Shown: positions 743 through 56,318 of the stretch, one piece after another
How the letters are laid out: each line of letters begins with the position of its first letter
Numbering within the stretch: position 1 is the first letter of the stretch
Virus record (IMG/VR): IMGVR_UViG_3300036857_000036
Span: 1 to 56,318 of that record
Direction: 5' to 3' (one strand)
DNA from: a virus
Length of the DNA: 56,318 bases
Notes under the pieces: generated by a model
The model's database searches: none
Told to the model about the DNA's origin: nothing
Seen by the model: only the letters and a program-made list of their open reading frames with translations
Position numbers and translations under genes: made by a program

Positions 743-1502
743 TGGTGACCTCCTGGTACGCGCTGTGTGCTAGGACTCCTGGCTGCCACTTGCCGAACCG
801 TCCGATACGCATCCACTCCGGATGGCAGTCGCAGGTGTGCGATATGGGTTTGTGCCCCGTCCGCAACATGCTCTCGGGGAAGTCGCGTCTGCCCTCAGCC
901 CCGAACTCCAGATACTCGTGGAGCCAGAGGCATGAGGATCGGTACCACGGATACTCGGGGTCACCGTTGTAGACAACGACGTTGGGAGTGCCCTCATCAG
1001 CCAACACTCCGCCGGAGTCAGCCATTACCCACATTGGCGCCGACTCGAAGATATGCTCGTTCTTCTCGCACAGTACCGGCGCAGGGATCGAAGACACGAG
1101 TAGGTCGATACCCGAGCGCTCGAAGTAGCGCAGGACGAGAGGCGTGACGTCGCAGTCAATGATCTTGTCCTCGAAGATTTCCCACAACTCATCGTAGGCA
1201 TCCTGCATGTTCCAGGCGTCGTGAACGCCGGGCTCGAACTTGGCCCAGCTTGTCGCATGCATCGGATCGCCGTACACCTTCTTGGCGTAGCCGTCGGCGC
1301 TGCCGTACTTCCTGTACTCGACCGGCGCATACCTCGGGCTGAGACCAGGGATTGGCTTGTGGAGGTACTGCGCCCCGTGAATGACCGACTTCTCCCTGCG
1401 ACTGAAGATATGTACGTCGGTGAATGGGATCGCGTCTGCTGCGTAGGCCGCCATGAGCCCGGCAGGACCACATCCCAGAACAACAACTTTCTTATGCTTC
1501 AT
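723..1502 (-). CDS. FAD/NAD-binding oxidoreductase-like protein
   Basis: 259 residues. The N terminus VVVLGCGPAGLMAAYAA is a classic Rossmann dinucleotide-binding loop (GxGxxG) followed by a helix and an acidic/aromatic strand end. The rest holds many Cys, His and Trp residues (such as HTCDCHPEW near the C terminus) and no second domain I can name. The start at 1502 overlaps the primase stop as ATGA; a longer start at 1532 is less likely. The protein is short for a full FAD oxidoreductase, so a reduced or divergent member is likely. It sits between primase and nucleotidase, so a nucleotide- or base-modifying role is possible but not shown. Confidence 0.65.
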   Translation of the reverse strand: MKHKKVVVLGCGPAGLMAAYAADAIPFTDVHIFSRREKSVIHGAQYLHKPIPGLSPRYAPVEYRKYGSADGYAKKVYGDPMHATSWAKFEPGVHDAWNMQDAYDELWEIFEDKIIDCDVTPLVLRYFERSGIDLLVSSIPAPVLCEKNEHIFESAPMWVMADSGGVLADEGTPNVVVYNGDPEYPWYRSSCLWLHEYLEFGAEGRRDFPESMLRTGHKPISHTCDCHPEWMRIGRFGKWQPGVLAHSAYQEVTIAMHQL

Positions 1503-4213
1503 GTAATGCTCCGCGCTATCTCGACGGCCCAAGGGGCCACCTCATATTTGCCACCACTTGCAGTCACCGCATGCATGCCGCTAAGTTTGTTGATGTAGAT
1601 ACCCCCGGCATCTACGGCCCCGAGACCAAAACCCGCCAACTCTCCATTCATCAGTTGCTGACGAACATTGATCGGTGCCGTCTGCAAGAACTCCCGCAGT
1701 TCACCTCCATAGTTCTCGCCGGCATGCTCGACGAGTTCCTCATGCTTCTTGATTTCAACGAGACCAAGCTCGCGCGCTCCCAGGAACCGCTCGTACAGTC
1801 GCCGGGCAGCCTCGATGTGCTCGGACTTGACGATCAGACGATGCCCGTCTTTCGTAGAAAACAGGCGAGCAGCAAGAGCCACAGCCATCCTAGCAAGCCT
1901 GACCCCCGCTTCATTCGGCTGGAAGATTGGGACGGTTGTTGTGAAATCACTACTAAGAGCCTTGCTGTGCTTCCAGATAGCTGTCCTTGCCGGCCGCGTC
2001 CACCGCACGTCATCTGCCTTGCGAGACCAGGCCCACAAGACGAGCCACCGCAGGACTTCCTGCGATTCGTCATCCAGTCCTCCATATGTCTTCTGGGCTT
2101 TGTCGAGTTCCTTGCCGACGTTGCCCTTGATGTATAGCGGGATGTCCACTCGCGCCAGATCTTCGGCCTGTCCCATCTGATCGCGAAGTGCGTCGATCCC
2201 ATTTGCGTACCGCGCCCGCCTACCATTAGCGAGCCACAACAGTCTGACCTGCGCTTGAACCTCAGCCGCGCGAATCTTGCTGACTTGGACCACGCCGCGC
2301 GAGCGCATGTCAGACATCTGCGCTATTTGCTCAGTACGTAGACCCTGCGCCTCATCCAGCGCGACGAGCCCACGATTGTTTAGAGGCAAAACCCCAACCG
2401 ATCCTCCCCAAGTTTCCCGGCCAGAGCCGAGGCGCTTGTCTACTCCGAACAGGAGTCCGGCGACGGAGGCATTTTCAGAGGATTGGTAGTGACCTCGTTG
2501 ATACAGATCGAGCAGTTTGGAGGCAGTCGTAGACTTACCACTACGCGTTTCACCGACGGCGAGTAGCTCCATCCAGCCACGAGTGACGACACTTCCCCCA
2601 AACCGGAAATGTAGCACTGAGTGATAGACCAGATCTGTTGCCATGTGTAGTAGTCGTTGTCCATAGATCTCAGTCACGTGGTACTCTAGTTGTTCCGAAA
2701 TCTGCTCAAGACGTTCATCCGGTGTTCCCGCGAAGCGCGCGACCCATTGCTGTGCCCGCTCCACATCGTCGGCTCCTGGGCTGAAGGAGTCAAGGTCTTG
2801 GACCGCAGGCTCACACTCGGTCGCCATGAAGATGGCCCGCTGTCCCCGTGGAGCCACCCGCAGCTTACCACGAAACCGATACGCCTGATTGAGACCAGGA
2901 GGCTTACCTTCGTGACGTAGGACAACTGGGTAGGCTTCCTCGGCAAGATTGGAGCCATTCCGAATCTCGCAGTCCCACGCGGAGTGGTACGTCGCTCGGA
3001 CATCGACCTTGGGGCAGTTGTGCGGAGCCCCTGAAGCACGGCGGAAAAGCTGGTTCCGCTTCTCAACGCTGCCGCTTGCTCCAAGAAGCTCCAGGTGGAG
3101 TTCGTGACTCTCCCCAATTGGAGTCTTGAGATCACCGCCGCGTTGGCCCACCGGGCATACCGCGCATCTCTTAGGGTCCCAATCATAGTTACAGCGTGCC
3201 TCCAAACTTCTAGGTAGCAGTATCTGTGTTGAGAAGATCGAGGCCAGAGTACCAACCACCTCGACCGACTTGCCCTCCATATTGCCCGACCGGAGTTCCT
3301 CATAATCGGCCGGAGTGTAAAGAAGCTCATCCTTGACTTCGCTGATGGGTTTTGCTAGCTTCTTCAGCTTGCTGATCGTCCCGCCGTCAATGAAGAAGTC
3401 CGTCAGATCCTTCCGCGAACCCATCGGATACGGCAGGTCGATAACGAGCAGTTTGCCGGCGATGTTTGAAAGTTTGTCTACGATCCTACGTGTTGCGCGC
3501 CGCCCATCCGCGTCGCGATCGAAACACACGTAAACGGTCAAGCCTTTGAACCAATCGGACCAGTTCTCCCGCCAGCGTCCGGTGCTCTTAGCGCCCGATG
3601 TACCAGTTACTGCTGGGAGCCCTTGCTGGTTGCAAATCAGCGCATCAAGTTCACCTTCGCAGATCATCACCTCCTTTGGATCGTCAAGGAAGATGTTGAT
3701 TGGATACAATCTCGGTGGACTCCCCCAACCGGGCCAATTCTTCATCTTGGGATCGAGAGTGTGCGAGTACTGCCTGATGTTGACGAGCTTACCTGCGTCA
3801 TCGTAGACAGGTATTGTGAAGCGTTGCCCGTTCCAGCCAATGCCGTATCGCTGGAGCGTATCTGGGTTCAGCCCACGGCGGATTTCGAGCCACTCCAGTA
3901 GATCACTGTTCCCCAACAACGCCGACTGCCAACCGTCCAGACGGGCTGAATCAGGGAACGGCCGCTTGTCGCCATTCGAGCTTGTGGTTCCAGGTTCACG
4001 ATTTGCAGGCAGCCATTCCGCACGCTGCTTGAGGAGCAGATCGAGTGTTCCACCGCCGCAGCTAGCAAAGCAGTTCCACTCGCGCGTCTTGAAGTTCACC
4101 ACGGCCGAACGCCGAGCATCGTCATGGAGAGGACAGATCATGTCGATATCCCCATTTGGACGCTCGGCGCCCGCCAGGTAGGGTTCCAACAGTTGCCTGG
4201 CGCTAGCGGCCAT
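1499..4213 (-). CDS. Primase-helicase with MCM-like AAA+ domain
   Basis: 904 residues. Domains in order: a CHC2-like zinc site (CPLHDD at about 26-31, then CFASCGG); a TOPRIM fold (ICEGELDAL about 184-192 and FDRDADG about 230-236); a middle region with a Cys cluster (CNYDWDPKRCAVC, about 335-350) before beta-rich sequence; and an AAA+ motor with Walker A GETRSGKST (about 554), Walker B LVALDEAQG (about 616), sensor-like LLWLANG (about 658) and an arginine-finger-like ARVDIPLYI (about 686). The order of motor motifs follows MCM helicases, not DnaB. It would synthesise primers and unwind at the fork. A GGGGG run lies eight bases before the ATG. The stop overlaps the next gene as ATGA. Confidence 0.85.
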   Translation of the reverse strand: MAASARQLLEPYLAGAERPNGDIDMICPLHDDARRSAVVNFKTREWNCFASCGGGTLDLLLKQRAEWLPANREPGTTSSNGDKRPFPDSARLDGWQSALLGNSDLLEWLEIRRGLNPDTLQRYGIGWNGQRFTIPVYDDAGKLVNIRQYSHTLDPKMKNWPGWGSPPRLYPINIFLDDPKEVMICEGELDALICNQQGLPAVTGTSGAKSTGRWRENWSDWFKGLTVYVCFDRDADGRRATRRIVDKLSNIAGKLLVIDLPYPMGSRKDLTDFFIDGGTISKLKKLAKPISEVKDELLYTPADYEELRSGNMEGKSVEVVGTLASIFSTQILLPRSLEARCNYDWDPKRCAVCPVGQRGGDLKTPIGESHELHLELLGASGSVEKRNQLFRRASGAPHNCPKVDVRATYHSAWDCEIRNGSNLAEEAYPVVLRHEGKPPGLNQAYRFRGKLRVAPRGQRAIFMATECEPAVQDLDSFSPGADDVERAQQWVARFAGTPDERLEQISEQLEYHVTEIYGQRLLHMATDLVYHSVLHFRFGGSVVTRGWMELLAVGETRSGKSTTASKLLDLYQRGHYQSSENASVAGLLFGVDKRLGSGRETWGGSVGVLPLNNRGLVALDEAQGLRTEQIAQMSDMRSRGVVQVSKIRAAEVQAQVRLLWLANGRRARYANGIDALRDQMGQAEDLARVDIPLYIKGNVGKELDKAQKTYGGLDDESQEVLRWLVLWAWSRKADDVRWTRPARTAIWKHSKALSSDFTTTVPIFQPNEAGVRLARMAVALAARLFSTKDGHRLIVKSEHIEAARRLYERFLGARELGLVEIKKHEELVEHAGENYGGELREFLQTAPINVRQQLMNGELAGFGLGAVDAGGIYINKLSGMHAVTASGGKYEVAPWAVEIARSIT

Positions 4214-4468: not shown

Positions 4469-5599
4469 CTAGAAGGGCTTGTCCTCCTTGGCGTCGTCCT
4501 TGCGGAGTCGGCTGACGAGAGCGCGCTTGGTGCCCTTGGTGGCGAGGGAGCGTTGCTCCAACTCCTCCTTCAGATCGTCGAGCGACCACTCCTCGTAGTC
4601 GTCGGCGTCATCGTCGGCCTCCGCATCCTCGGAGGGCACCTCGATTTCCAGCGCCTCGGCCACCTTGCCGCGCAGGTCGTCCAGGTCGGTCTTGGGCGTG
4701 ACGCGGATGCCGAGTTCCTCGTCCTTGATCAGCTGTCGCAGGTCCGGCTTCGACATGCCCGAGATGTCCTCCCAGGTGTAGTCGTCCTCGCCAGCTTCGT
4801 CCTCGGGCTCCTCAGGCTCGTCCTCGGGGATGTCCTCGATTTCCAGAGCCTCCGCGACTTCCATGCGCAGGTCTTCCACGTCGGTCGTCCTGGTGACCTT
4901 GATGTCCAGTTCTTCGTCCTTGATGAGCTGGCGCAGTTCGGCCTTGTCGAGCGACTCCACGTCCTCCCACGTGTACTCGTCGCCCTCACCGTCCTGGTCC
5001 TCGTCCTCCTGCTCCTCGGCGTCGCTCTCGCGCAGCCGCTCGATCAGGGCCTTCTTGGACCCGCGCGTCGGCAGGTCCCGCTCAGACAGCTCTGCCTTGA
5101 GCTTCGACAGCGCCATGCTGTCGTAGTCGTCCTCAGTGGTCGCAGCCACTTCCTTCTCCTCATCGTCGAATGACTCGCCTGCCCCGGCGCCATCTTCTGC
5201 CGGGAACATGCGACGGATACGGGCCTGCTCGTCGAACCCCCGCGCGTCATCGGCCGGACGGATGAACGTCTTGATGCCGATGATCTTGCCGACCAGGTCC
5301 TTGTCGGTGTCGAGTGTTCCCGACTCCGATGTCTTGCGATCGGTCACGACCGCCGCCGCCTCCAGAAGCTCCCGCAGCTTCCATGCGGCTGAATCCGACT
5401 CCATGTTGACGTACTCGTACAGCTTCGCGCCGTTGAAGTCAGAGTCGTTGACGATTTCGACCACCAGCTCGATCCGCTCATCCTTGCCCTCGGGCTTGGT
5501 GATGTCCGCGCTCGTGATCTTCGCCTGGTAGACGTTGGGCGACGGGACCTTGCGCTGACCGGCCTCGACACCGCGAACGTCGTACTTCACACGCGCCAT
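4469..5599 (-). CDS. DUF669-like ssDNA-binding protein with SAP/HeH repeats
   Basis: 376 residues. Residues 1-130 resemble the DUF669 phage family (usually next to recombinase ATPases and thought to bind single-stranded DNA). After an acidic linker come four small helical modules. Two are SAP-like (SKLKAELSERDLPTRGSKK at about 164 and DDLKEELEQRSLATKGTKR near the C terminus). Two are near-identical repeats that start with YTWED and contain LRQLIKDEEL (about 208-255 and 273-320). Linkers are very rich in Asp and Glu. AGGAGG precedes ATG 5599 and contains the stop of the gene before. It probably acts with the Sak4-like ATPase in strand annealing or exchange; that role is inferred from context. 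Confidence 0.75.
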   Translation of the reverse strand: MARVKYDVRGVEAGQRKVPSPNVYQAKITSADITKPEGKDERIELVVEIVNDSDFNGAKLYEYVNMESDSAAWKLRELLEAAAVVTDRKTSESGTLDTDKDLVGKIIGIKTFIRPADDARGFDEQARIRRMFPAEDGAGAGESFDDEEKEVAATTEDDYDSMALSKLKAELSERDLPTRGSKKALIERLRESDAEEQEDEDQDGEGDEYTWEDVESLDKAELRQLIKDEELDIKVTRTTDVEDLRMEVAEALEIEDIPEDEPEEPEDEAGEDDYTWEDISGMSKPDLRQLIKDEELGIRVTPKTDLDDLRGKVAEALEIEVPSEDAEADDDADDYEEWSLDDLKEELEQRSLATKGTKRALVSRLRKDDAKEDKPF

Positions 5600-5605
5600 T
5601 GCGCG

Positions 5606-6409
5606 TTACCTCCTTGATGTTGTGCGCTGAACTCGCCGTCGTCGAGCTGTTCCGCGCCTTGGTGGACTACCGTTGCGTCTGCTTGCTTGGGCGGCCTTGA
5701 TTGCCTCCTCAATCTTCGGCATTGTTGGATCGACAAGTCGGCCATCCTCGCCGAACGCATCGAACTGGTCTTTGGCCTCGTAGCGCTCAGTCCCGTGCGT
5801 ACGAAGCACGCGGCGGTTCTTGCCCTTGTCGTCCGTAACGACTTCCAGATAGCCGACGATGTTCATGTAACCCTGGATCTTCGTCGACATGTTCTTCCCT
5901 TGAACCCAGGGCTGAAGCTTGGTCTCGTTGGTAACGGGATTCAACAACTCCGCAGGATGAGCCGTAATCCCGAGGTTGAAGCCGGGGAATGATACCATGT
6001 CCCGGACCCACTGCTGGAGTCGCCACATGTTGATGCCGTACTCCAACTTGTCGAGCGTGTACTCAGCCCGGTGCGGGTAGCGAGCAATTGTACCGTCCCA
6101 GATGTCGTCAAGGCCCGTGTCCTGGAACAGACTGATCGAGTCAAGCCAAATCCAGCTGTAGTGCTTGGCGCCTTCATGCTTGGCGAACTCGCGGACGTTG
6201 TACATCTCGGACCAGTCATATACCTCCCACTTCTCCGCGCCTATGACACGGATCGACTCGGTGTGATCCGTTGGCGGTTTGACGATCAAGGTCTTTGGTC
6301 CAGACGAACCGATCAGCCTGGTCTTGCCGTTGCCCGGCGGACCATACAGCATGAAGCAGATCTTGTTTGTCGGCGTCATGACCGGTTGAATCTCTTTCGG
6401 CTTAGCCAT
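5606..6409 (-). CDS. Sak4-like RecA-fold ATPase
   Basis: 267 residues. The Walker A motif GPPGNGKT is at 24-31 and a Walker B-like WIWLDSIS near 87-94, in the arrangement of phage Sak4/AAA_24 proteins, single-domain RecA relatives that promote annealing or strand exchange. The C-terminal 25 residues are very basic (repeated Arg/Ser), suitable for DNA contact. AGGAGG is seven bases before the ATG. It overlaps the membrane protein gene before it by eight bases and is followed six bases later by the DUF669-like gene, the usual partner. Confidence 0.8.
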   Translation of the reverse strand: MAKPKEIQPVMTPTNKICFMLYGPPGNGKTRLIGSSGPKTLIVKPPTDHTESIRVIGAEKWEVYDWSEMYNVREFAKHEGAKHYSWIWLDSISLFQDTGLDDIWDGTIARYPHRAEYTLDKLEYGINMWRLQQWVRDMVSFPGFNLGITAHPAELLNPVTNETKLQPWVQGKNMSTKIQGYMNIVGYLEVVTDDKGKNRRVLRTHGTERYEAKDQFDAFGEDGRLVDPTMPKIEEAIKAAQASRRNGSPPRRGTARRRRVQRTTSRR

Positions 6410-6632
6410 TTAGCCGCCTCCTTTCACTTGCTTGCTTACTCTCGTCTGCGGCTCGCCTCCAGCTATCGATGGAGGAATGTCCATTCAGAAATGGACGCAG
6501 GGACTGTCTGTGTGATAGCTCGTCCGTCTGGCGAGCCTTCTTCAGTGCCCGCTTTCCAAGCAGGAATCCGCTCATGCCTAGAAGCAGTCCCGCGAGCGCT
6601 ATCACCATTAGGACGATGTTTGTCAAAGTCAT
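6402..6632 (-). CDS. Small single-pass membrane protein
   Basis: 76 residues. Residues 5-27 form a hydrophobic helix (IVLMVIALAGLLLGMSGFLLG) and the rest is basic and polar, so a short anchor with a cytoplasmic tail is likely. It is coupled by ATGA to the nuclease gene in front and overlaps the ATPase gene behind. The function is unknown; its place inside a recombination operon is unusual and might link replication proteins to the membrane. Confidence 0.7.
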   Translation of the reverse strand: MTLTNIVLMVIALAGLLLGMSGFLLGKRALKKARQTDELSHRQSLRPFLNGHSSIDSWRRAADESKQASERRRLNG

Positions 6633-7648
6633 CTCTTTTCGTCAAACTCAATTTCGTGTTGGGAGTAGGGGTCCCATGCTTCCGTGGTTGCGGATAGCAT
6701 CGGCTTCCAGTCATTGCCCGTTTCGTGAAGCTCACAAACATCGAGCCAGGCACATCCCTTACAGTGCCACATGCTGGGACTCTTGTTTGACGGTAGCTCC
6801 CCACGCCGGACCATTTGCATCTCACGATAGTCATTCATCGCGCGACGCCGCACTTCTTCCTTGTCGTGCTCCGATCTGTATGTCGGCTCACGGTGAAAAA
6901 TCTCGCTAGGCTGCCGCTTGCTAACCGAGCCGTCCTTGTTGAGATAGTGACCGTCGGCGTTCTGCAGACGATCATCGCGCTTCGCGCGCCGGAGCAAGTT
7001 GACGAGCAAGCCGCTGAGATCCTTGAATTGGCTCTGGCGCAGAATGCCCTCAGTCCTCAGCCAGTCACTCCCGAACGTCCAGTACGAACCAAACTGATCA
7101 TTCATCGGCATCGCGTAGAGGACGTCAGTGAAAGCTCGGCAAGTCTTGTGATCCCAGATCCAGATTCGCTTCGTGCTGATCTCCTTCATGATGAGATCGA
7201 GAATGCCGGTATACGTGAACATATACCGGCCCGTCCGCGGGTTCAGGACCGGAACCTGGAATGGCTGCTCTGTGGCGATTACCTCCCAACCTCGATCACC
7301 ACGGTAGCGCTCGACGTACATCTCCAGCAAGTCGATCCCAAGTTGGCGAGCGTCCACCCATTCCTCGCCTTCAAGAATATCCCCAGTCTCCGCAAAGACA
7401 GCGAACTCACCGGCCACCTTGATGTCCGCGTCGTAGACCTTCCTGAACGCCTTGGCAGGATGAAGCCCGCGCTTCTTGCCTTTGACGTAATACATCGCCA
7501 GCGCCTCGTGAACGAGAGTCCCGAATCGCAACACCGGCGCATCCCTGCGCTGTCTGAGCCTCTCCTCAAAAGAGAGGTTCCAGGCCCATCTACACCTTTT
7601 GAACGCAGATCGCTCGGATGTTCTCACAAGAGTGGTTTCGTTGCCCAT
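6629..7648 (-). CDS. Cas4/RecB-like PD-(D/E)XK nuclease with Fe-S cysteines
   Basis: 339 residues from ATG 7648. Nuclease motifs: RFGTLVHEAL with the conserved His, GILDLI with the motif II Asp, and IWDHKT with the D-x-K pair. One cysteine near the N terminus (KRCRWAW) and three near the C terminus (CKGCAWLDVC) match the four cysteines that hold an iron-sulfur cluster in Cas4 and AddB nucleases. It probably resects DNA ends for the recombination proteins behind it. A longer reading from 7711 would run through the leader hairpin and is rejected. It is the first gene behind the 7764-7796 promoter motif, and it ends in an ATGA coupling. Confidence 0.85.
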   Translation of the reverse strand: MGNETTLVRTSERSAFKRCRWAWNLSFEERLRQRRDAPVLRFGTLVHEALAMYYVKGKKRGLHPAKAFRKVYDADIKVAGEFAVFAETGDILEGEEWVDARQLGIDLLEMYVERYRGDRGWEVIATEQPFQVPVLNPRTGRYMFTYTGILDLIMKEISTKRIWIWDHKTCRAFTDVLYAMPMNDQFGSYWTFGSDWLRTEGILRQSQFKDLSGLLVNLLRRAKRDDRLQNADGHYLNKDGSVSKRQPSEIFHREPTYRSEHDKEEVRRRAMNDYREMQMVRRGELPSNKSPSMWHCKGCAWLDVCELHETGNDWKPMLSATTEAWDPYSQHEIEFDEKR

Positions 7649-7674
7649 TGCTCCAGACCTTTGGCAGTTAGGTG

Positions 7675-7733
7675 GCGGTCCCGCTGACTGGGCGGCGGAC
7701 TGGAGATACACCGTATCCAGTCAGCGGAACCGC
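7675..7733 (-). promoter_or_regulatory. 17-bp leader stem-loop before nuclease gene
   Basis: Bases 7675-7691 and 7717-7733 pair over 17 positions with one G-U wobble, around a 25-base loop that itself contains ATAC/GTAT. It lies in the predicted untranslated leader, 25 bases downstream of the likely start of transcription and 27 bases before the nuclease ATG. It could stabilise or regulate the message. Confidence 0.6.
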
Positions 7734-7987: not shown

Positions 7988-8380
<393 letters not shown>

Positions 8381-8992: not shown

Positions 8993-9751
8993 CTATGAGA
9001 CCGGCACGTTGATGCCAGTCAAGTCTCCCTCATTGCAGACAGCGTACTGCCTGGTGAAGTGAAGCTTGCCCTTCTTGATCCGAACGGCGGCGCTGCCCTC
9101 GCGGATGCCCTTGAAGCTGACCTTCACCTTGCCGTTCGTGACCTTGATCGTCTTGACCTTGCTACCGATCGTCACCTTGACGGACTTTGCGCCCTTGAAT
9201 GACTTCGGCAGCGTGATCGTCACCGACCGCTTGGACTTGCAACGGTGGACGCTTTGACCCTGCGCTCCGGGCTGACCTGATGTCCCGCCCGTCCCTGCGG
9301 CTCCAGCCGGTCCGGTAGGACCAGGAGGACCGGGAGTGCCGGCAGGCGGCAGCGGGATGCATGTCGTCGGGTACTCGAAGATGGTCTCCTCGTCAGTGAG
9401 TTCACCATCTTGGAACGTCTGCTCGATGACTGTGAACCCGGGGACACCAATCTCGTTGGAGTCGCATGCAGCAGCGACCAGCGAGAAGTCCAGCTTGCCC
9501 GTAAACACGGGCGTCGGCGGCTCCTCAGGCTTGCCGCAGTGCTTGTGTCCGTCGCCATCCTCGAACGGTAGGTGATCCTTGCCGTCCTGTTCGTGCTTCG
9601 TCCAGTGCGCCGAGTTGGTGGGTGCGTCGATCAGAGCGAACGACCCATCCTGCTGACCATGACAGATCCAGCCCTTGTCCTGATCTGCTCCCGCCGAGCC
9701 GACGGCAAGAACCACAAATGCTGTAGCCAACGCCACAGTATAGCCCCTCAT
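8993..9751 (-). CDS. Secreted protein with collagen-like middle segment
   Basis: 252 residues. A signal peptide occupies residues 1-22 (VALATAFVVLAVGSAGA). A Cys/His-rich domain (ICHGQQDG, HKHCGKP) follows, then a second region with cysteines, about ten Gly-X-Y triplets (residues 136-165), and a Lys-rich beta-repeat tail (SVKVTIGSKVKTIKVTNGKVKVSF). The first domain recalls actinobacterial exported proteins that begin with a Lys-Trp-x-Cys-His motif. It is coupled by ATGA to the gene before it. It probably sits in the cell envelope; function unknown. Confidence 0.75.
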   Translation of the reverse strand: MRGYTVALATAFVVLAVGSAGADQDKGWICHGQQDGSFALIDAPTNSAHWTKHEQDGKDHLPFEDGDGHKHCGKPEEPPTPVFTGKLDFSLVAAACDSNEIGVPGFTVIEQTFQDGELTDEETIFEYPTTCIPLPPAGTPGPPGPTGPAGAAGTGGTSGQPGAQGQSVHRCKSKRSVTITLPKSFKGAKSVKVTIGSKVKTIKVTNGKVKVSFKGIREGSAAVRIKKGKLHFTRQYAVCNEGDLTGINVPVS

Positions 9752-9939
9752 GAACCCTCCCTGTTTCGTTCCTCTTCAAATTGCTCGATCACGATGTCCA
9801 GTGCTTCTGCTGCTCTCTCCACGAGATAGGTCAGAGCGTGGCACAATCGTGTGATCTCACGATCCCGCTGCTCGATAAAGTTCGGCGGCAATCCAGTTGG
9901 CCGAGGCGGCGGTTGAGTTGGCCTTCGACCCCTAGCCAC
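9748..9939 (-). CDS. Small coiled-coil protein
   Basis: 63 residues from GTG 9939 with AAGGAG upstream. A Pro/Arg-rich head (RGRRPTQPPPRPTGLPP) is followed by one long amphipathic helix ending in EEERNREGS. It overlaps the helicase gene by eight bases and couples by ATGA to the secreted protein gene behind. Function unknown. Confidence 0.65.
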   Translation of the reverse strand: MARGRRPTQPPPRPTGLPPNFIEQRDREITRLCHALTYLVERAAEALDIVIEQFEEERNREGS

Positions 9940-11800
9940 CCTTGCGCTCCTTCATCATCTGCCTCCGAACGTCGAGAATGTTCTTAGTAGTGATGCGCTT
10001 ATCCTTAGCTACCTTGTAGATGTCCTCCTCAATGGTCCCAATCGACCTGTAGTAGTACGCCGTAACATGGTGGATGCGACTGATGCGATGAATCCGATCT
10101 TCCAACTGCTCCTGGTCGTCGGGATTCCATGTCTCGTCCAAGATGTGAACGGTATCAGCCCGGTCGAGCGTGATGGCAACTCCGCCAGCCGTTGTGGTTA
10201 CGCAGAGTACGCGTGGACTGTCCTTGCCGCTCTGGAACCGTCGCACCAGATCGTTGCGCTTCCGCTCACTGATCTTGCCCGTGATCTTCTCGGACTTGAT
10301 CCCCATCTTGTTGAGCATATAGCAGACCCAGTCCACCATCTCGCGCGACTGGCTCGCGACGACTGCGACATCATCTCCTTCCTCATCGTTCTTGCGAATG
10401 CCAAGCTCATCCAGTCTCTCGACCAAATAGTCCAGTTTGCCCGAGTTGACCGGATAGACTCTGATCTCCTCCTCACCGTCAGCTTTCAGCCGCGTCGCAA
10501 CTGAGCACTCTGCGTTCGAGAACTGCTTCAAGCGCGTGTACTCCGCGAGCACACCGACAGCGCTGAGCCGATGCTCGTTGATCCGGATTTCCGCATCACG
10601 CTCCATCTTGGCGTACTGGTTGGACTGCCGCTTCGACATATCGCACCAGACATCGACTCGCTGAATCGGCGGTAGCTCGGGCACAACTTCTGACTTGAGC
10701 CGTCGCACGATGTAGCGAGCGTGGTCCGAGAAGAACTCATCCTCGCGACCGGGCTGAATGCCGCCGATCTTCTTGTGACCGTCGTATCCAGCCTCGATGT
10801 TGAGCCAAGTTTCAGCCCATCGCCACTTTGACGAGAACTTCGACTGATCGATGTGGTGAAGCGCGCCCCAGAGCTTGATCGGCTTTCCGCCCATTGGCGT
10901 ACCCGAGACCAGAAACAGACGCTCACGCTTGATGTTGCGAACGAGCTTGCCGAACTGTGTGCCCTTGCTCAAGTCACCTGAGACGTTGACGAGGCCCGTG
11001 GTGTGGTACTCGTCGATGATGACGGTCTTCCATTTCAGCTTCGCAAGCAGTGCCGGCAGCCCCTTGCGACACTGGGCTGCAGTCGTCACAAACCAGAATG
11101 GTTCCTTTCGCTTCTGGTGTGCTAGGACCTTACCCAAAATGGTGTCCAGTTCCCCAGGCGTGGTATCGCCGGAGAGAATGTAGACCGGATCGCCAACCCA
11201 CTCGTCAAGTTCGTACTGCCAGACGGTCCCAAGACTGGTCTTGGGCGCAACAACGAGTTGTGGCCCATTGTCTAGCTTCGCCTCGAACACGGCCGCAATG
11301 GTCTCGACCGTCTTGCCGAGGCCCGGCTCATTGGCGTTGATGATGTTGTTCTGCGCCATGAACTTGACGTCCGCACGTTGGTACGGTCGCAAGAACTCAG
11401 CCAAGTCTGGCAGGACTTCCGGGAGCACCTCCAGCTTCCCGTCGTCGGCCAGCGCCATCTTCCGCAGATTGCGTTCGATCTTGCGCTGCTCCCAGGCCCA
11501 TGCCTCAACCTGGGGTCCTGTATCGAGCGCCTCGCCAAAGATGTCTCGTAGCCGCCGCGCGACGGCCAGATCAAGCGGGACCGTCCAGTACGGCCCGCCA
11601 TCCTCCTTGGGCGTAAAGCGTCCGGGCAGCGCCTTGACTGCATCCTTGATCTCAGGCGCGTATGGGAACCAGACTTGGATTCTGGTTCGATCCTCCGTCA
11701 GTTCACAATATGGTCCAATCACCGCCCATACCTGTCTTGTTTCAGGAGTTCTGAACCTCAGTTTGACTTTGCGTTGCGACGCTGTCGTCTTTGGCGACAT
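9932..11800 (-). CDS. SNF2-type DEAD-like helicase/translocase
   Basis: 622 residues from ATG 11800 (a TTG at 11809 is possible). An N-terminal region resembling HARP-type domains precedes the motor: motif I NEPGLGKTVETI (about 155-166), motif II IIDEYH (about 259-264, Tyr where Ala is usual), SGTPM (motif III), and motif VI EDRIHRISR (about 570-578). This is the layout of SNF2 translocases that remodel forks or strip proteins from duplex DNA. Phages often carry one to support replication or recombination. The gene overlaps both neighbours. Confidence 0.85.
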   Translation of the reverse strand: MSPKTTASQRKVKLRFRTPETRQVWAVIGPYCELTEDRTRIQVWFPYAPEIKDAVKALPGRFTPKEDGGPYWTVPLDLAVARRLRDIFGEALDTGPQVEAWAWEQRKIERNLRKMALADDGKLEVLPEVLPDLAEFLRPYQRADVKFMAQNNIINANEPGLGKTVETIAAVFEAKLDNGPQLVVAPKTSLGTVWQYELDEWVGDPVYILSGDTTPGELDTILGKVLAHQKRKEPFWFVTTAAQCRKGLPALLAKLKWKTVIIDEYHTTGLVNVSGDLSKGTQFGKLVRNIKRERLFLVSGTPMGGKPIKLWGALHHIDQSKFSSKWRWAETWLNIEAGYDGHKKIGGIQPGREDEFFSDHARYIVRRLKSEVVPELPPIQRVDVWCDMSKRQSNQYAKMERDAEIRINEHRLSAVGVLAEYTRLKQFSNAECSVATRLKADGEEEIRVYPVNSGKLDYLVERLDELGIRKNDEEGDDVAVVASQSREMVDWVCYMLNKMGIKSEKITGKISERKRNDLVRRFQSGKDSPRVLCVTTTAGGVAITLDRADTVHILDETWNPDDQEQLEDRIHRISRIHHVTAYYYRSIGTIEEDIYKVAKDKRITTKNILDVRRQMMKERKGG

Positions 11801-12144
11801 TGATTGCAATCGCAGAGTTGCGTGACGCGGTAGAGCTGATATGCCGCCTCGACCGCTGCCGCAAGCGCAGCAGTTGCTGCTTCCGCCGCCTTTCGCGCAG
11901 CAGCGTCGAGTTCCAGATGCATCGGCGGCATCTCCTTCATCTCTTGCGCATGTTGCTCACGAAACCAATTGGACTTGTCGACCATGTCGTCGCCCGAAAT
12001 CTTCAACATGCCGGCCTGCTCCAGATGTTGCAACGGAGCCCAGTCAGAGGTTCCCAACACCAACCGCTTGATGGGATTATCCGTGAGCGCGAGTCGCTCC
12101 AATTCCTCGCGAGTGTACTCTAATCTCTTGTCGTGTGCTGCCAT
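11758..12144 (-). CDS. Hypothetical alanine-rich protein
   Basis: 128 residues. GAAGGAG lies four bases before the ATG. The middle part contains an Ala-rich helix (residues 83-105) and the end carries CDCNQC followed by a basic tail, so a small metal or nucleic-acid site is possible. It overlaps the helicase by 43 bases, an unusually long overlap here. Function unknown. Confidence 0.65.
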   Translation of the reverse strand: MAAHDKRLEYTREELERLALTDNPIKRLVLGTSDWAPLQHLEQAGMLKISGDDMVDKSNWFREQHAQEMKEMPPMHLELDAAARKAAEAATAALAAAVEAAYQLYRVTQLCDCNQCRQRRQRRNAKSN

Positions 12145-51947: not shown

Positions 51948-52429
51948 TTGAGTGATTCGCGCCGCATGTTGGCTATCTCGACAAATCTCAACATGAGCCG
52001 CTTCTCGACCGTTCTGATCGGCACAATGTCGCACGCCCAGCTTTCCTCTCTGTAGCCACGCGCCAGGTCGAGGACTTCATCTGGCTCCAAACCCAATTCA
52101 TCAGCCAGTTCTCTGATCTTCCATCCATCATTGATCTTGATGATTAGCCAACGCCGGACCGGCCAGGCATCGACCTTGTCGCCGCCATTGCGACGGAGCC
52201 GAGCCTGACTCTCGATTTGGCGCAGATTCTTCTTGCGTTGCGGGCTGAGCTTGCGATACCACTCCTTGCGCCGATTTCGCGCACACACGCGACACTCCGA
52301 CCGCATGTAGTAGGTAGTGCCCCGTCTTTCATAGGTGAACTCGTAAGCATGTCGCCAGCGTCCGCAATTGGTGCAGTTCTTGCGACCGCAGATGACCGAG
52401 TTTTGGATTCTGATATCACGACTCTTCAT
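51944..52429 (-). CDS. Zinc-finger and HTH DNA-binding protein
   Basis: 161 residues from ATG 52429. The first half has four or five cysteines (CGRKNCTNCG and SECRVCARNR) with basic residues. The second half has an HTH-like segment (KIRELADELGLEPDEVLDLARGYR). It could be a transcription factor or a single-strand DNA protein. It overlaps the DnaE end by 14 bases. Confidence 0.65.
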   Translation of the reverse strand: MKSRDIRIQNSVICGRKNCTNCGRWRHAYEFTYERRGTTYYMRSECRVCARNRRKEWYRKLSPQRKKNLRQIESQARLRRNGGDKVDAWPVRRWLIIKINDGWKIRELADELGLEPDEVLDLARGYREESWACDIVPIRTVEKRLMLRFVEIANMRRESLK

Positions 52430-55400
52430 CTTCAGCCTCGTCGCGCCGGTCGCCCACCTCAATCACGACGAGTCGAGTCACGACGATCTCTCTGGCGCTA
52501 CGGTAGCTCGGCTTGAAGCCTTGGACCCAGACCACATCCTCGTCCAGCTCTAGATTCCAGAGTGCCTCCTTGAAGTTGGGATACTTGTAGCGGTCGATCC
52601 GCAGTCGCATCATGTCTTCCTCGTCCTCGCAGACGAGCAACATGAACTCACTCAAATCCGGGTCCTTGATCTTCTCGGGGTCAATCTCCTTGCCCATGCG
52701 AGCATTGACCTCAAACAGATCACGAAGGTTGCGCTGCCGTACGACTCCCATCCAAGTAACGGCCACTTGCTTGCCACGCTCGTACGGTACGTCAATGCTG
52801 CGATGAGTCGGACGCGGAATGTGGAACTTCCAGAGTGCCTCCTTCGCCTCTTCAATCCGGCGGTCGGCGTCGAACACGCCGAATGGATCATCCCGCTCCA
52901 CGAAGTCTGTGATCGCCTGGAGCTTGGCTGGACCGATGCCTGGAACTGTGATCATGTCGTGCCAGTTTACCCAGCCGTGCTCCTTGCCGCGCTCGCCCCG
53001 TACCTCCATAACTCTATCGGCCATCTTCTCACCGATGCCCGGTAGTTGTTGGAAACCCATCCGCACAGCAGGTCGTCCACCGTTAGAACGAACCATTGTC
53101 CATGTCCTGGTTGATCTGCGGACGGAAGGCGGCCGTACCTCAACCCCGTGCCGAATAGCATCTCGGATGAGAGTATTGCGCCGCCAATCGTCGTCGTGGG
53201 CCGCGAGATTGCAAGCAAAGAAAACCGCTTCATGATGCGCCTTCAACCACGCCGTGATGCAGCTGATCTTGCCGTATCCGCAGGCGTGCGCGAAGTTGAA
53301 GGCGTACGACCCTGACGTGATGCACGATCCCCAGACGCGCTCCGCAACACTGACTGGCAGCGGCGGCATGTCCGGATGACGCTCATGAATGGTTGCAGCG
53401 CCCTCCATGAATCGTGACTTCTGTCGGTTGAACTCTTGGTCTCCGAGTTTCTTGGAGATGATTTTGCGGATGTATGCCGCGGCCGTCCAATCAAAGTTGC
53501 CAATCTCCCTTACAATGCGCAGGATTTGCTCTTGGTAGATGATTTGATACTTCGTGTCTTGAACGATTCGGTCCACGGCCGGATGCCATAGTTCCGGTGA
53601 GCCGGTTCCGGCCTTGATGTTCATGTACGCCTCAGCCGCGCCGTTGTGAAGCGGTCCCGGTCGGGCCAGCGAGGTTACGTCGCAGATCTCATCGAAGTTG
53701 TCCGGTTTGATCTGCGAGTTCAGTAGGCGCACAGCCTGCCCCTCGAACTGGAAGATACCGATGACGTCACCCTTGCGGAAGATCTCAATCATCGGTTCGT
53801 CATCCAGCGGCAAGTTGTAAAGATCGTCCATGGTCAACCCAAGCTCCAGTCGGGCATTGTTGATCATGGTCATCGCTTTGAGGCCGAGGTAGTCCATCTT
53901 CAAGAGCCCTTGTCGTTCTGCGTCCCATTTGTCGATTGCTACGACTTCCACTTCCCGACCCTTGATGACTCGCTTGATTACTGGCGCGACGGTCCGGACA
54001 TGACCGACGACTAGGCCAGCCGCGTGAACACCAAACCCCTTGATATTGCCTTCCAGATCCTGGGCTCGTCGGAGATCTGGATACTTCTCGATGATCTTCT
54101 TGGACTCTGGGAACTGCTCAACCGTGTCCTCGATCGTGGCTGAGGACCGCAGGTCGCCAGATGATCTTTCGATCAATTGCCCCTTGATTACGTCAACTTC
54201 CCACTTTGGAACTCTAAACACGCGCGCCACATCGTCGAGTGCGTTCCTGGACTTGTAGTAGACAAATGTTCCAACGTTGAAACATTCGCCGTACTTTCCA
54301 GCGAGGTACTCACGTAGACGCCAGCGCGTGTCAGCGTCCAGATCGATGTCGATATCCGGCAGGTCCGGGCGACTCTCGTCAATGAACCGCTCAAAGACCA
54401 AGTTCGTGTGTACGAGTGGATTGACTTCCGTAATTCGTAGCAGGAACGCGACAAGGGAGGCAGCCGCACTTCCACGGGCAGGTCCCACGAAGACGCCATG
54501 CTCTTTACACCACACCACGCCGTCAGCAACAACGAGGAAGTAGTTCTCATAGTTCTTGCTCTCGATGATTGCCATTTCCTTGTCGAGTTGTTCCTGATAT
54601 GCTCGCCTCTTGCTCGGCGGTAGTCTGTGGATTCCGCGATAGACCCACCCATCGTTGACCCACTCCCGCATCAACTCACGCGCGCTGGTGTATCCCGGCG
54701 GCAGTGGGAACTCGATATCAGGCAGCTTGGGTAGCTCGACGTTACAGCGCTGTGCTAGTTCCTCGGCGTTGAGGATCGCTTGAACAGCGGCTCTATGGCT
54801 AAGCCCTGTCTGACGCAACCGTCGATATATGACACGATCAGAAAGAGGGAGACATAGGGGAGCTTCATATCCCCAGTCACGCTCCATGTCTTCGAGTGTG
54901 CGTTTCTCACCAGGACGAACGTTGTGGAGGATCTTCTGAATCTCACTTTCCGTTGGAGCAGTATAGTGGATGTCAAGAGTGGCGACAAGAGGTAGCCTCA
55001 GCTTCCGCGCGATCCGCTCAATCATCGGATTGAGGGCACAAGTTGATTCTAGCTCAGGGAACGCTTGCACCTCCAGGTAGTAGGCTCCAGGGAATGCCTG
55101 CGAGAACCGTTCTGCGATCTTCAGCCCGCGTCCGTACGAGGCATACTCGGGGTCAACGAGCTTCCCGCCCACGAGGCTGGTACATAGCAGGCTCCCTTGA
55201 CAACCCGATAGCACCACCAGACCTTCACGACGGTCATAGAGCATCTGTCCGTCGACTGTTGGCTCGTAGTAGAAGCCCTTGGAGTAGGACTCAGACACCA
55301 GAGTGAGGAGGTTTGCGTAGCCTCCTTCATCCTCAGCCAGAAGCGTGAGGTGGTTTTTCTTTTGTTCACGGTGCTCCTCATCGATTTCTCCACAATACGT

Positions 55401-55739
55401 CTCAACTCCAAAGATCGGCTTGATACCGGCCTTCTGAGCGGCAGCTTCCAGCTTGACGTGGCTGGACATGTTGCCGTGCTCCGTGAGCGTAATGGCGCTC
55501 ATGTTTAGCTCGACCGCGCGGCGCACGTGCGCCTCAGGCAGAGCGTAGCCATCCCCGTAGCTGAATGTAGAGTGATGATGCATACTCACCCAACGCTGCG
55601 GGTGCCTGTTCCCGTTTGCGGCCCGACGGACACCCTTCGGCTGCTTATGATGATGTCCGCCGGGCTCCAACTTGACGCGACCATGGACGTCAAGCTGCGC
55701 CTCCAAGCCCTTCTGAATTCCATGATCGCTACCGGGCAT
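52416..55739 (-). CDS. dnaE: DNA polymerase III alpha subunit (DnaE-like)
   Basis: 1107 residues. An N-terminal PHP domain (MHHHSTFSYGDG at about 53-64, LTEHGNMSSH and other His/Asp metal ligands) is followed by a C-family polymerase: ARGSAAASLVAFLL, the catalytic DIDIDLD (about 460-466), GFGVHAAGLVV and FNFAHACGYGKI. A helix-hairpin-helix pair (QQLPGIGEKMADRV and VPGIGPAKLQAITDF) lies near 890-930, then an OB-like end. The intact PHP site suggests proofreading in cis. It is the main replicative polymerase, coupled by TAATG. Confidence 0.9.
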   Translation of the reverse strand: MPGSDHGIQKGLEAQLDVHGRVKLEPGGHHHKQPKGVRRAANGNRHPQRWVSMHHHSTFSYGDGYALPEAHVRRAVELNMSAITLTEHGNMSSHVKLEAAAQKAGIKPIFGVETYCGEIDEEHREQKKNHLTLLAEDEGGYANLLTLVSESYSKGFYYEPTVDGQMLYDRREGLVVLSGCQGSLLCTSLVGGKLVDPEYASYGRGLKIAERFSQAFPGAYYLEVQAFPELESTCALNPMIERIARKLRLPLVATLDIHYTAPTESEIQKILHNVRPGEKRTLEDMERDWGYEAPLCLPLSDRVIYRRLRQTGLSHRAAVQAILNAEELAQRCNVELPKLPDIEFPLPPGYTSARELMREWVNDGWVYRGIHRLPPSKRRAYQEQLDKEMAIIESKNYENYFLVVADGVVWCKEHGVFVGPARGSAAASLVAFLLRITEVNPLVHTNLVFERFIDESRPDLPDIDIDLDADTRWRLREYLAGKYGECFNVGTFVYYKSRNALDDVARVFRVPKWEVDVIKGQLIERSSGDLRSSATIEDTVEQFPESKKIIEKYPDLRRAQDLEGNIKGFGVHAAGLVVGHVRTVAPVIKRVIKGREVEVVAIDKWDAERQGLLKMDYLGLKAMTMINNARLELGLTMDDLYNLPLDDEPMIEIFRKGDVIGIFQFEGQAVRLLNSQIKPDNFDEICDVTSLARPGPLHNGAAEAYMNIKAGTGSPELWHPAVDRIVQDTKYQIIYQEQILRIVREIGNFDWTAAAYIRKIISKKLGDQEFNRQKSRFMEGAATIHERHPDMPPLPVSVAERVWGSCITSGSYAFNFAHACGYGKISCITAWLKAHHEAVFFACNLAAHDDDWRRNTLIRDAIRHGVEVRPPSVRRSTRTWTMVRSNGGRPAVRMGFQQLPGIGEKMADRVMEVRGERGKEHGWVNWHDMITVPGIGPAKLQAITDFVERDDPFGVFDADRRIEEAKEALWKFHIPRPTHRSIDVPYERGKQVAVTWMGVVRQRNLRDLFEVNARMGKEIDPEKIKDPDLSEFMLLVCEDEEDMMRLRIDRYKYPNFKEALWNLELDEDVVWVQGFKPSYRSAREIVVTRLVVIEVGDRRDEAEDEES

Positions 55740-55981: not shown

Positions 55982-56274
55982 GGCCAGCTCCCATCTCGGT
56001 CGCCTCGACGGAACAGGATCAAGAAGAACACGCAGTACGCAATCAAGTCGATCCCATCATCCTCTGGCTTCAGAGGGTGACCTGCGTCCGGGTCAGCGTT
56101 GAAGTAGACCCAGAGCCGATCCAGTTTCTTGCGCATCTCCACGAGCTGTGCCCGGTAGCCGCCGTTGCCCCAGGGATCGTCCTTGGGATATTCGGCAGAG
56201 CGATCCTGGTACTTCTCCATCACCTGGTCCAACACTGCGGAGAATGGATCATCAGGATCTGACGGGAGTGCCAT
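55963..56274 (-). CDS. MazG/Nmad1-like all-alpha protein
   Basis: 103 residues from ATG 56274, GAGGAG just upstream. MRKKLDRLWVYFNADPDAG then KPEDDGIDLIAYCVFFLIL has the K-x-x-RL...DD-x-DLI-x-Y pattern of the DUF1599/Nmad1 and MazG-like families, with Glu/Asp for metal. It would act on nucleotides or modified bases. It spans the joined ends and overlaps the HAD gene of the left end. Confidence 0.5.
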   Translation of the reverse strand: MALPSDPDDPFSAVLDQVMEKYQDRSAEYPKDDPWGNGGYRAQLVEMRKKLDRLWVYFNADPDAGHPLKPEDDGIDLIAYCVFFLILFRRGDRDGSWPWPMTM

Positions 56275-56318
56275 GCTCCTCGTGTGCTGCGAACCAGCCA
56301 TCCACACGCTCCTTGATC
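56209..56318. repeat. Terminal direct repeat, right copy
   Basis: Identical to bases 1-110. The MazG/Nmad-like gene begins inside it, and the HAD gene that ends at base 44 continues from the left end. Confidence 0.95.

Follow-up and report, generated by a model that had tools for sequence, protein, structure and literature searches.

What replicative helicase and primase serve a phage that encodes its own DNA polymerase and in which no DnaB is found? The question is raised by the IMG/VR record IMGVR_UViG_3300036857_000036, positions 1 to 56,318 (the whole stretch that was analysed, referred to below as the window). One ORF of the window (1499..4213, minus strand, 904 amino acids, ATG start), whose reading frame is open and exact, encodes in a single chain: a DnaG-type primase, an MCM N-tier, an MCM AAA+ motor and a winged-helix-like domain.

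Genome and replication cassette

The window starts and ends with an exact direct repeat of 110 bp (1-110 and 56209-56318) and the contig of a close relative (L001) spans the window ends; in all likelihood the record is therefore the complete genome, assembled as a circle, of a 56-kb myophage. It contains structural genes (tail sheath, portal, major head protein and terminase) together with genes encoding a DnaE-type DNA polymerase III alpha (52416..55739, minus strand; PHP, NTPase and finger domains), ThyX, Sak4, a PD-(D/E)XK exonuclease and a SNF2-family helicase. A domain search of the 56,318-nt window found no DnaB_C domain.

The cassette neighbours of the primase-MCM gene, all on the minus strand, encode: a SNF2-family helicase (9932..11809; Pfam SNF2-rel_dom, 3.6e-26), the PD-(D/E)XK exonuclease (6629..7711; phrog_1218, 1.6e-65), a RecA-like ATPase of the Sak4 kind (5606..6409; phrog_124, 4.7e-32) and a SAP-repeat protein (4469..5599; Pfam SAP, 1e-20). 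The gene order SNF2 or other helicase, exonuclease, Sak4/RecA-like protein, small protein and primase/MCM recurs in phages of Microbacterium, Arthrobacter, Bacillus and Weizmannia, and the conserved cassette was found in phages that encode their own polymerase. The replication cassette of the phage is self-contained and lacks DnaB. The SAP-repeat protein, which consists of an N-terminal domain followed by SAP motif repeats in an acidic tail, occupies the small-protein slot of the cassette and is possibly a DNA-binding replication partner of the phage. The gene adjoining primase-MCM on the other side (723-1532) encodes a dinucleotide-binding/oxidoreductase-like protein (phrog_8720, 7.6e-58; a family of unknown function), and Krampusvirus and Wollypog likewise have an annotated oxidoreductase close to their primase-MCM gene. 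Also beside the replication genes are two ORFs (7988-8371 and 8993-9751) for small proteins that contain collagen-like Gly-X-Y repeats and probably bear signal peptides.

Identity of the primase and motor halves

The preliminary description of this DNA had placed a zinc site, TOPRIM and an AAA+ motor in one protein, and Pfam and a family profile of 28 sequences bear out this domain content (all features below lie, like the gene, on the minus strand). By its sequence, the N-terminal half is a DnaG-type primase, with a CHC2 zinc domain ahead of TOPRIM. The CHC2-type zinc ribbon (4034..4156, residues 20-60; C27, H30, C48 and C52) is matched weakly in the window protein (Pfam, E=0.14) and exceeds the Pfam cut-off in several relatives; within the family C27 (25/26) and C48 (26/26) are retained nearly throughout, and H30 (18/26) and C51/52 are less conserved. 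The DnaG RNA-polymerase core with TOPRIM (3359..3952, residues 88-285; Pfam Toprim_2, E=5e-7) contains the TOPRIM Glu (E188) and DxD (D232, D234) in all 28 sequences, together with the equally invariant adjoining K156 and D269 (28/28). When compared with the PDB, the 28-member profile matched Aquifex DnaG (2au3) at 1e-26 over columns 5-298, which correspond to the zinc ribbon and the RNAP core, and the T7 gp4 primase (1nui) at 2.4e-11. PHROGs assigned primase families to residues 18-290, a DNA-helicase family to residues 516-682 and an unnamed family to residues 442-818; the AEP domain DNA_primase_S did not match the window protein.

TOPRIM is carried also by OLD nucleases and topoisomerases, the CHC2 ribbon is degenerate in some members (at H30) and MCM-only relatives exist, all of which would fit a primase part that is vestigial or a nuclease, the protein being a helicase alone. 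We hold this to be very improbable, since the five TOPRIM-region residues are invariant and the match spans the whole zinc and RNAP region of DnaG, beyond TOPRIM. Template-dependent RNA primer synthesis by the primase-MCM is predicted.

In the second half of the protein, the Pfam MCM domain (PF00493) was found with E=6e-9 (35.8 bits vs. a cut-off of 23.3), and the 28-sequence profile matched MCMs of the PDB at ~1e-11 over columns 492-831. All four motifs quoted in the preliminary description are present in the motor (2099..2686, residues 510-705): GETRSGKST (residues 554-562), of which GETRSGKS (554-561; 2531..2554) is the Walker A with K560 conserved in 81/81 sequences; LVALDEAQG, containing the Walker B (residues 616-621; 2351..2368) that ends in D620 (73/81) and E621 (81/81); LLWLANG, with the sensor 1 Asn663 (2225..2227; 81/81); and ARVDIPLYI, the counterpart of the MCM SRFD-type motif, with the arginine finger Arg688 (2150..2152) and D690 (both 81/81). 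The AlphaFold2 model shows two beta-hairpins: i) the helix-2 insert (2396..2464, residues 584-606), formed by a helix (584-587) and two strands (589-596 and 599-606) and aligned to the AGLTA...GALVLAD segment of MCM; and ii) the presensor-1 hairpin (2255..2293, residues 641-653; strands 641-644 and 650-653), which carries Lys646 (68/81). A lid with the sensor-2 Arg775 (1781..1909, residues 769-811; R or K in 81/81) is followed by a C-terminal domain (1505..1762, residues 818-903) that is modelled as helices, then a beta hairpin and a helix, a topology suggestive of a winged-helix-like domain.

Ahead of the motor, the AlphaFold2 secondary structure and Foldseek point to an MCM N-tier-like beta domain (2714..3316, residues 300-500). 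A Cys cluster had been reported at the place where MCM proteins carry the zinc finger, and indeed C341, C350 and C353 (3155..3193), with C400 further on, are found there; each Cys of the pattern C341-x8-C350-x2-C353 is near-invariant (27/28) and position 400 is Cys in 22 of 28 sequences. The spacing, Cx8CxxC...C, differs from the paired CxxC (CxxC...CxxC) of cellular MCM, and we consider the cluster a candidate zinc site.

PF00493 alone is not specific: it matched in 14/14 control genomes, E. coli included, and is found also in bacteria without a replicative MCM. The Pfam match by itself would therefore not discriminate between an MCM and another AAA+ clade (ComM/YifB, Mg-chelatase, MoxR/RavA) that has the same inserts and is merely MCM-like, and motor identity was tested further. 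All 60 PDB sequences listed for an 81-sequence profile that runs from the N-tier through the motor to the C-terminal domain were MCMs (best 2.7e-15), and with the motor profile cellular and archaeal-virus MCMs scored 33-55 bits vs. 5.9 bits for the ComM control, which was one protein, from an Actinomycetes MAG. AlphaFold2 modelled the full-length protein with a pLDDT of 83.6 and residues 285-904 with a pLDDT of 89.7 and a pTM of 0.86, the latter from an alignment of 73 sequences taken from the window and IMG/VR only. The best 50 Foldseek matches of both models were MCMs without exception, and for residues 285-904 the TM-score reached 0.62 (query) and 0.64 (target); sequence identity across the structurally matched part was ~15%, and the 620-residue query aligned with full-length MCM chains over 537-679 columns, N-tier included. 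To our knowledge, ComM has no N-tier of the MCM kind. Profiles, PDB searches and models together leave next to no probability for another clade, and non-MCM AAA+ clades were rejected. A RecA/DnaB-type motor like that of T7 gp4 was rejected as well: the motor matches MCM and the domain search of the genome returned no DnaB_C. As judged from profiles and models, the AAA+ part is an MCM with its N-tier ahead of the motor; the earlier assignment to MCM and not to the DnaB/gp4 RecA-type thus stands, and the check that had been proposed for it gave MCM AAA+ with both hairpins, and not SF3/D5 or RecA-type, as the best match.

A family with exchangeable primase modules

The preliminary description had called the arrangement rare, which is only partly right. 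Homologues that span 80% or more of the protein and are about 27-31% identical to it were found in 45 phage records (Microbacterium, Arthrobacter, Bacillus). Of the ORFs from IMG/VR and other retrieved loci, 102 match all three profiles (primase, N-tier and motor); some contigs entered this count twice, so that the distinct contigs are somewhat fewer, and the fused homologues in IMG/VR number about 100. A profile search of genome contigs recovered a single relative, in an Actinomycetes MAG. The homologues are mostly annotated as 'DNA primase(/helicase)'. The TOPRIM-MCM proteins of L003 (MW202657.1) and L007 (OM293949.1) bear the misleading labels 'DNA directed DNA polymerase' and 'DNA primase small subunit'. 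The 'DNA primase/helicase' proteins of Krampusvirus, Wollypogvirus and BSP7-like phages have the same end-to-end architecture (26-31% identity over about 90%) and a similar gene order; they are labelled primase, primase/helicase, 'primase small subunit' or DNA polymerase, and MCM is unnamed in the annotations examined.

The protein resembles, and differs from, several known systems. With T7 gp4/Twinkle-type proteins it shares a zinc ribbon and TOPRIM primase N-terminal to a ring helicase, but their motor is of the RecA type (DnaB superfamily, 5'-3') whereas that of the window protein is an AAA+ MCM. With archaeal and eukaryotic MCM it shares the N-tier, helix-2 insert, presensor-1 hairpin, Arg finger, sensor 2 and the C-terminal winged-helix-like domain, whereas those proteins have no primase domain, another N-tier Cys spacing and only ~15% identity to it. 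SCCmec Cch is likewise an MCM-like helicase, encoded by a mobile element of bacteria; it has other operon partners, and the part of its description available to us mentions no fused TOPRIM primase (PMC7581432). MCM in bacterial phages (PMC5862659) and AEP-MCM fusions (PMC4538821) have already been published. The latter comprise the BcMCM type (Bacillus cereus prophage; Bacillus phage vB_BboS-125), in which a primase likewise precedes MCM in one chain and which had been put forward as a precedent from Bacillus: such fusions do exist, but their primase is archaeo-eukaryotic (DNA_primase_S), with a fold unrelated to the TOPRIM/DnaG of the window protein (PMC4538821). A literature search, which did not reach the Kazlauskas 2016 survey, yielded no description of a TOPRIM/DnaG-MCM fusion; we rate it as a new form of the known primase-MCM fusion, which that survey could pre-empt.

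Besides the TOPRIM-MCM fusion, the family includes AEP-MCM, MCM-only and gene-split variants. At about ten loci (L094, L106, L107, L110, L121, L129, L159, L162, L037 and L091) the TOPRIM primase and N-tier are encoded by a first ORF and the MCM motor by the next, the genes being adjacent or, in the majority of cases, sharing between a few and ~75 bases. Since the linker between N-tier and motor is where the two ORFs part, a ring would have to assemble from two separate chains. The -1 frame is the usual one for the second ORF. A programmed -1 frameshift joining the two genes was rejected, an in-phase slippery heptamer being present in just one of eight loci; ordinary overlapping genes are more likely. 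In the MCM-only variants (L039:4599-6464 and L164:5383-7242) an N-tier, motor and C-terminal domain occupy the same slot in the SNF2-exonuclease-Sak4 cassette, and a primase domain was recognised neither in the MCM gene nor in the neighbouring genes tested. Since some relatives do without a primase domain, the cassette does not depend on the tether.

AEP replaces TOPRIM in vB_BboS-125, the N-tier and motor of which are homologous to those of the TOPRIM-MCM family, and in close IMG/VR relatives (L008:4426-7509; also L038, L040, L041 and L043). Among fused proteins, primase distances correlate with motor distances (Mantel r=0.78, 0/5000 permutations), so that the fusion has for the most part been passed on whole. 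In the motor tree, of which the AEP side does not include BcMCM, the AEP form clusters with three TOPRIM forms (L021/L024/L026) at 97/96, and the same cluster was obtained at 94/92 in a tree of N-tier and motor without outgroup. Despite this support, a topology with AEP-MCM outside all others was not rejected by the AU test (p=0.35), so that AEP-MCM is placed inside TOPRIM-MCM only tentatively. That the primase module was exchanged or lost on a shared N-tier and motor is well supported as far as exchange is concerned. Tentatively, and at somewhat less than even odds, the family may represent an old, large MCM lineage of bacterial phages in which a fused TOPRIM is usual and from which the Bacillus AEP-MCM derived by a primase swap on the same N-tier socket.

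Proposed role at the fork

The presence of an own DnaE polymerase in a complete genome without DnaB makes the protein a likely replicative helicase-primase, and the explanation as a whole, an MCM ring with a tethered primase that replicates the phage, is in our opinion probably correct. Six copies would form an MCM ring around the leading-strand template and track 3'-5'. The TOPRIM/DnaG primase domains would be tethered to the N-tier, a face that we infer from the domain order, the model holding no ring. At such a fork the tether may pass the extruded lagging strand to the primase domain, which would lay RNA primers for extension by the DnaE-type polymerase of the phage. In yeast and human replisomes the catalytic subunit of primase lies over the MCM N-tier, above the zinc-finger channel, and at eukaryotic forks the lagging-strand template exits between the zinc fingers of the N-tier, where primase docks non-covalently (PMC10501992); given this docking place, the tether would hand the lagging strand to the primase. 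For the AEP counterpart BcMCM, 3'-5' helicase, primase and polymerase activities have been reviewed (PMC4538821).

The protein could also be a dedicated origin-melting or restart enzyme, the MCM melting or loading, the primase starting once and the host DnaB unwinding in bulk. Origin binding would be conceivable for the C-terminal winged-helix-like domain, and the adjoining Sak4, exonuclease and SNF2 helicase suggest recombination-dependent replication; but the phage DnaE polymerase needs a fork helicase and all motor residues are strongly conserved, as fits a processive engine, and we consider a role confined to initiation or restart unlikely in comparison with that of a replicative helicase-primase.

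In bacteria, DnaG primase works with a RecA-type ring that moves 5'-3' on the lagging strand, and in archaea and eukaryotes an AEP primase is paired with MCM, a ring that moves 3'-5' on the leading strand. The family described here has a bacterial-type primase in covalent linkage with an MCM, and its N-tier and motor occur also with an AEP or with no primase. These variants allow a direct test, in culturable phages (Microbacterium, Arthrobacter and B. subtilis), of what a primase needs to work with a helicase of opposite polarity. MCM helicases appear to be commoner in bacterial phages than their 'DNA primase' labels suggest, and the fusion would represent a widespread phage replication enzyme.
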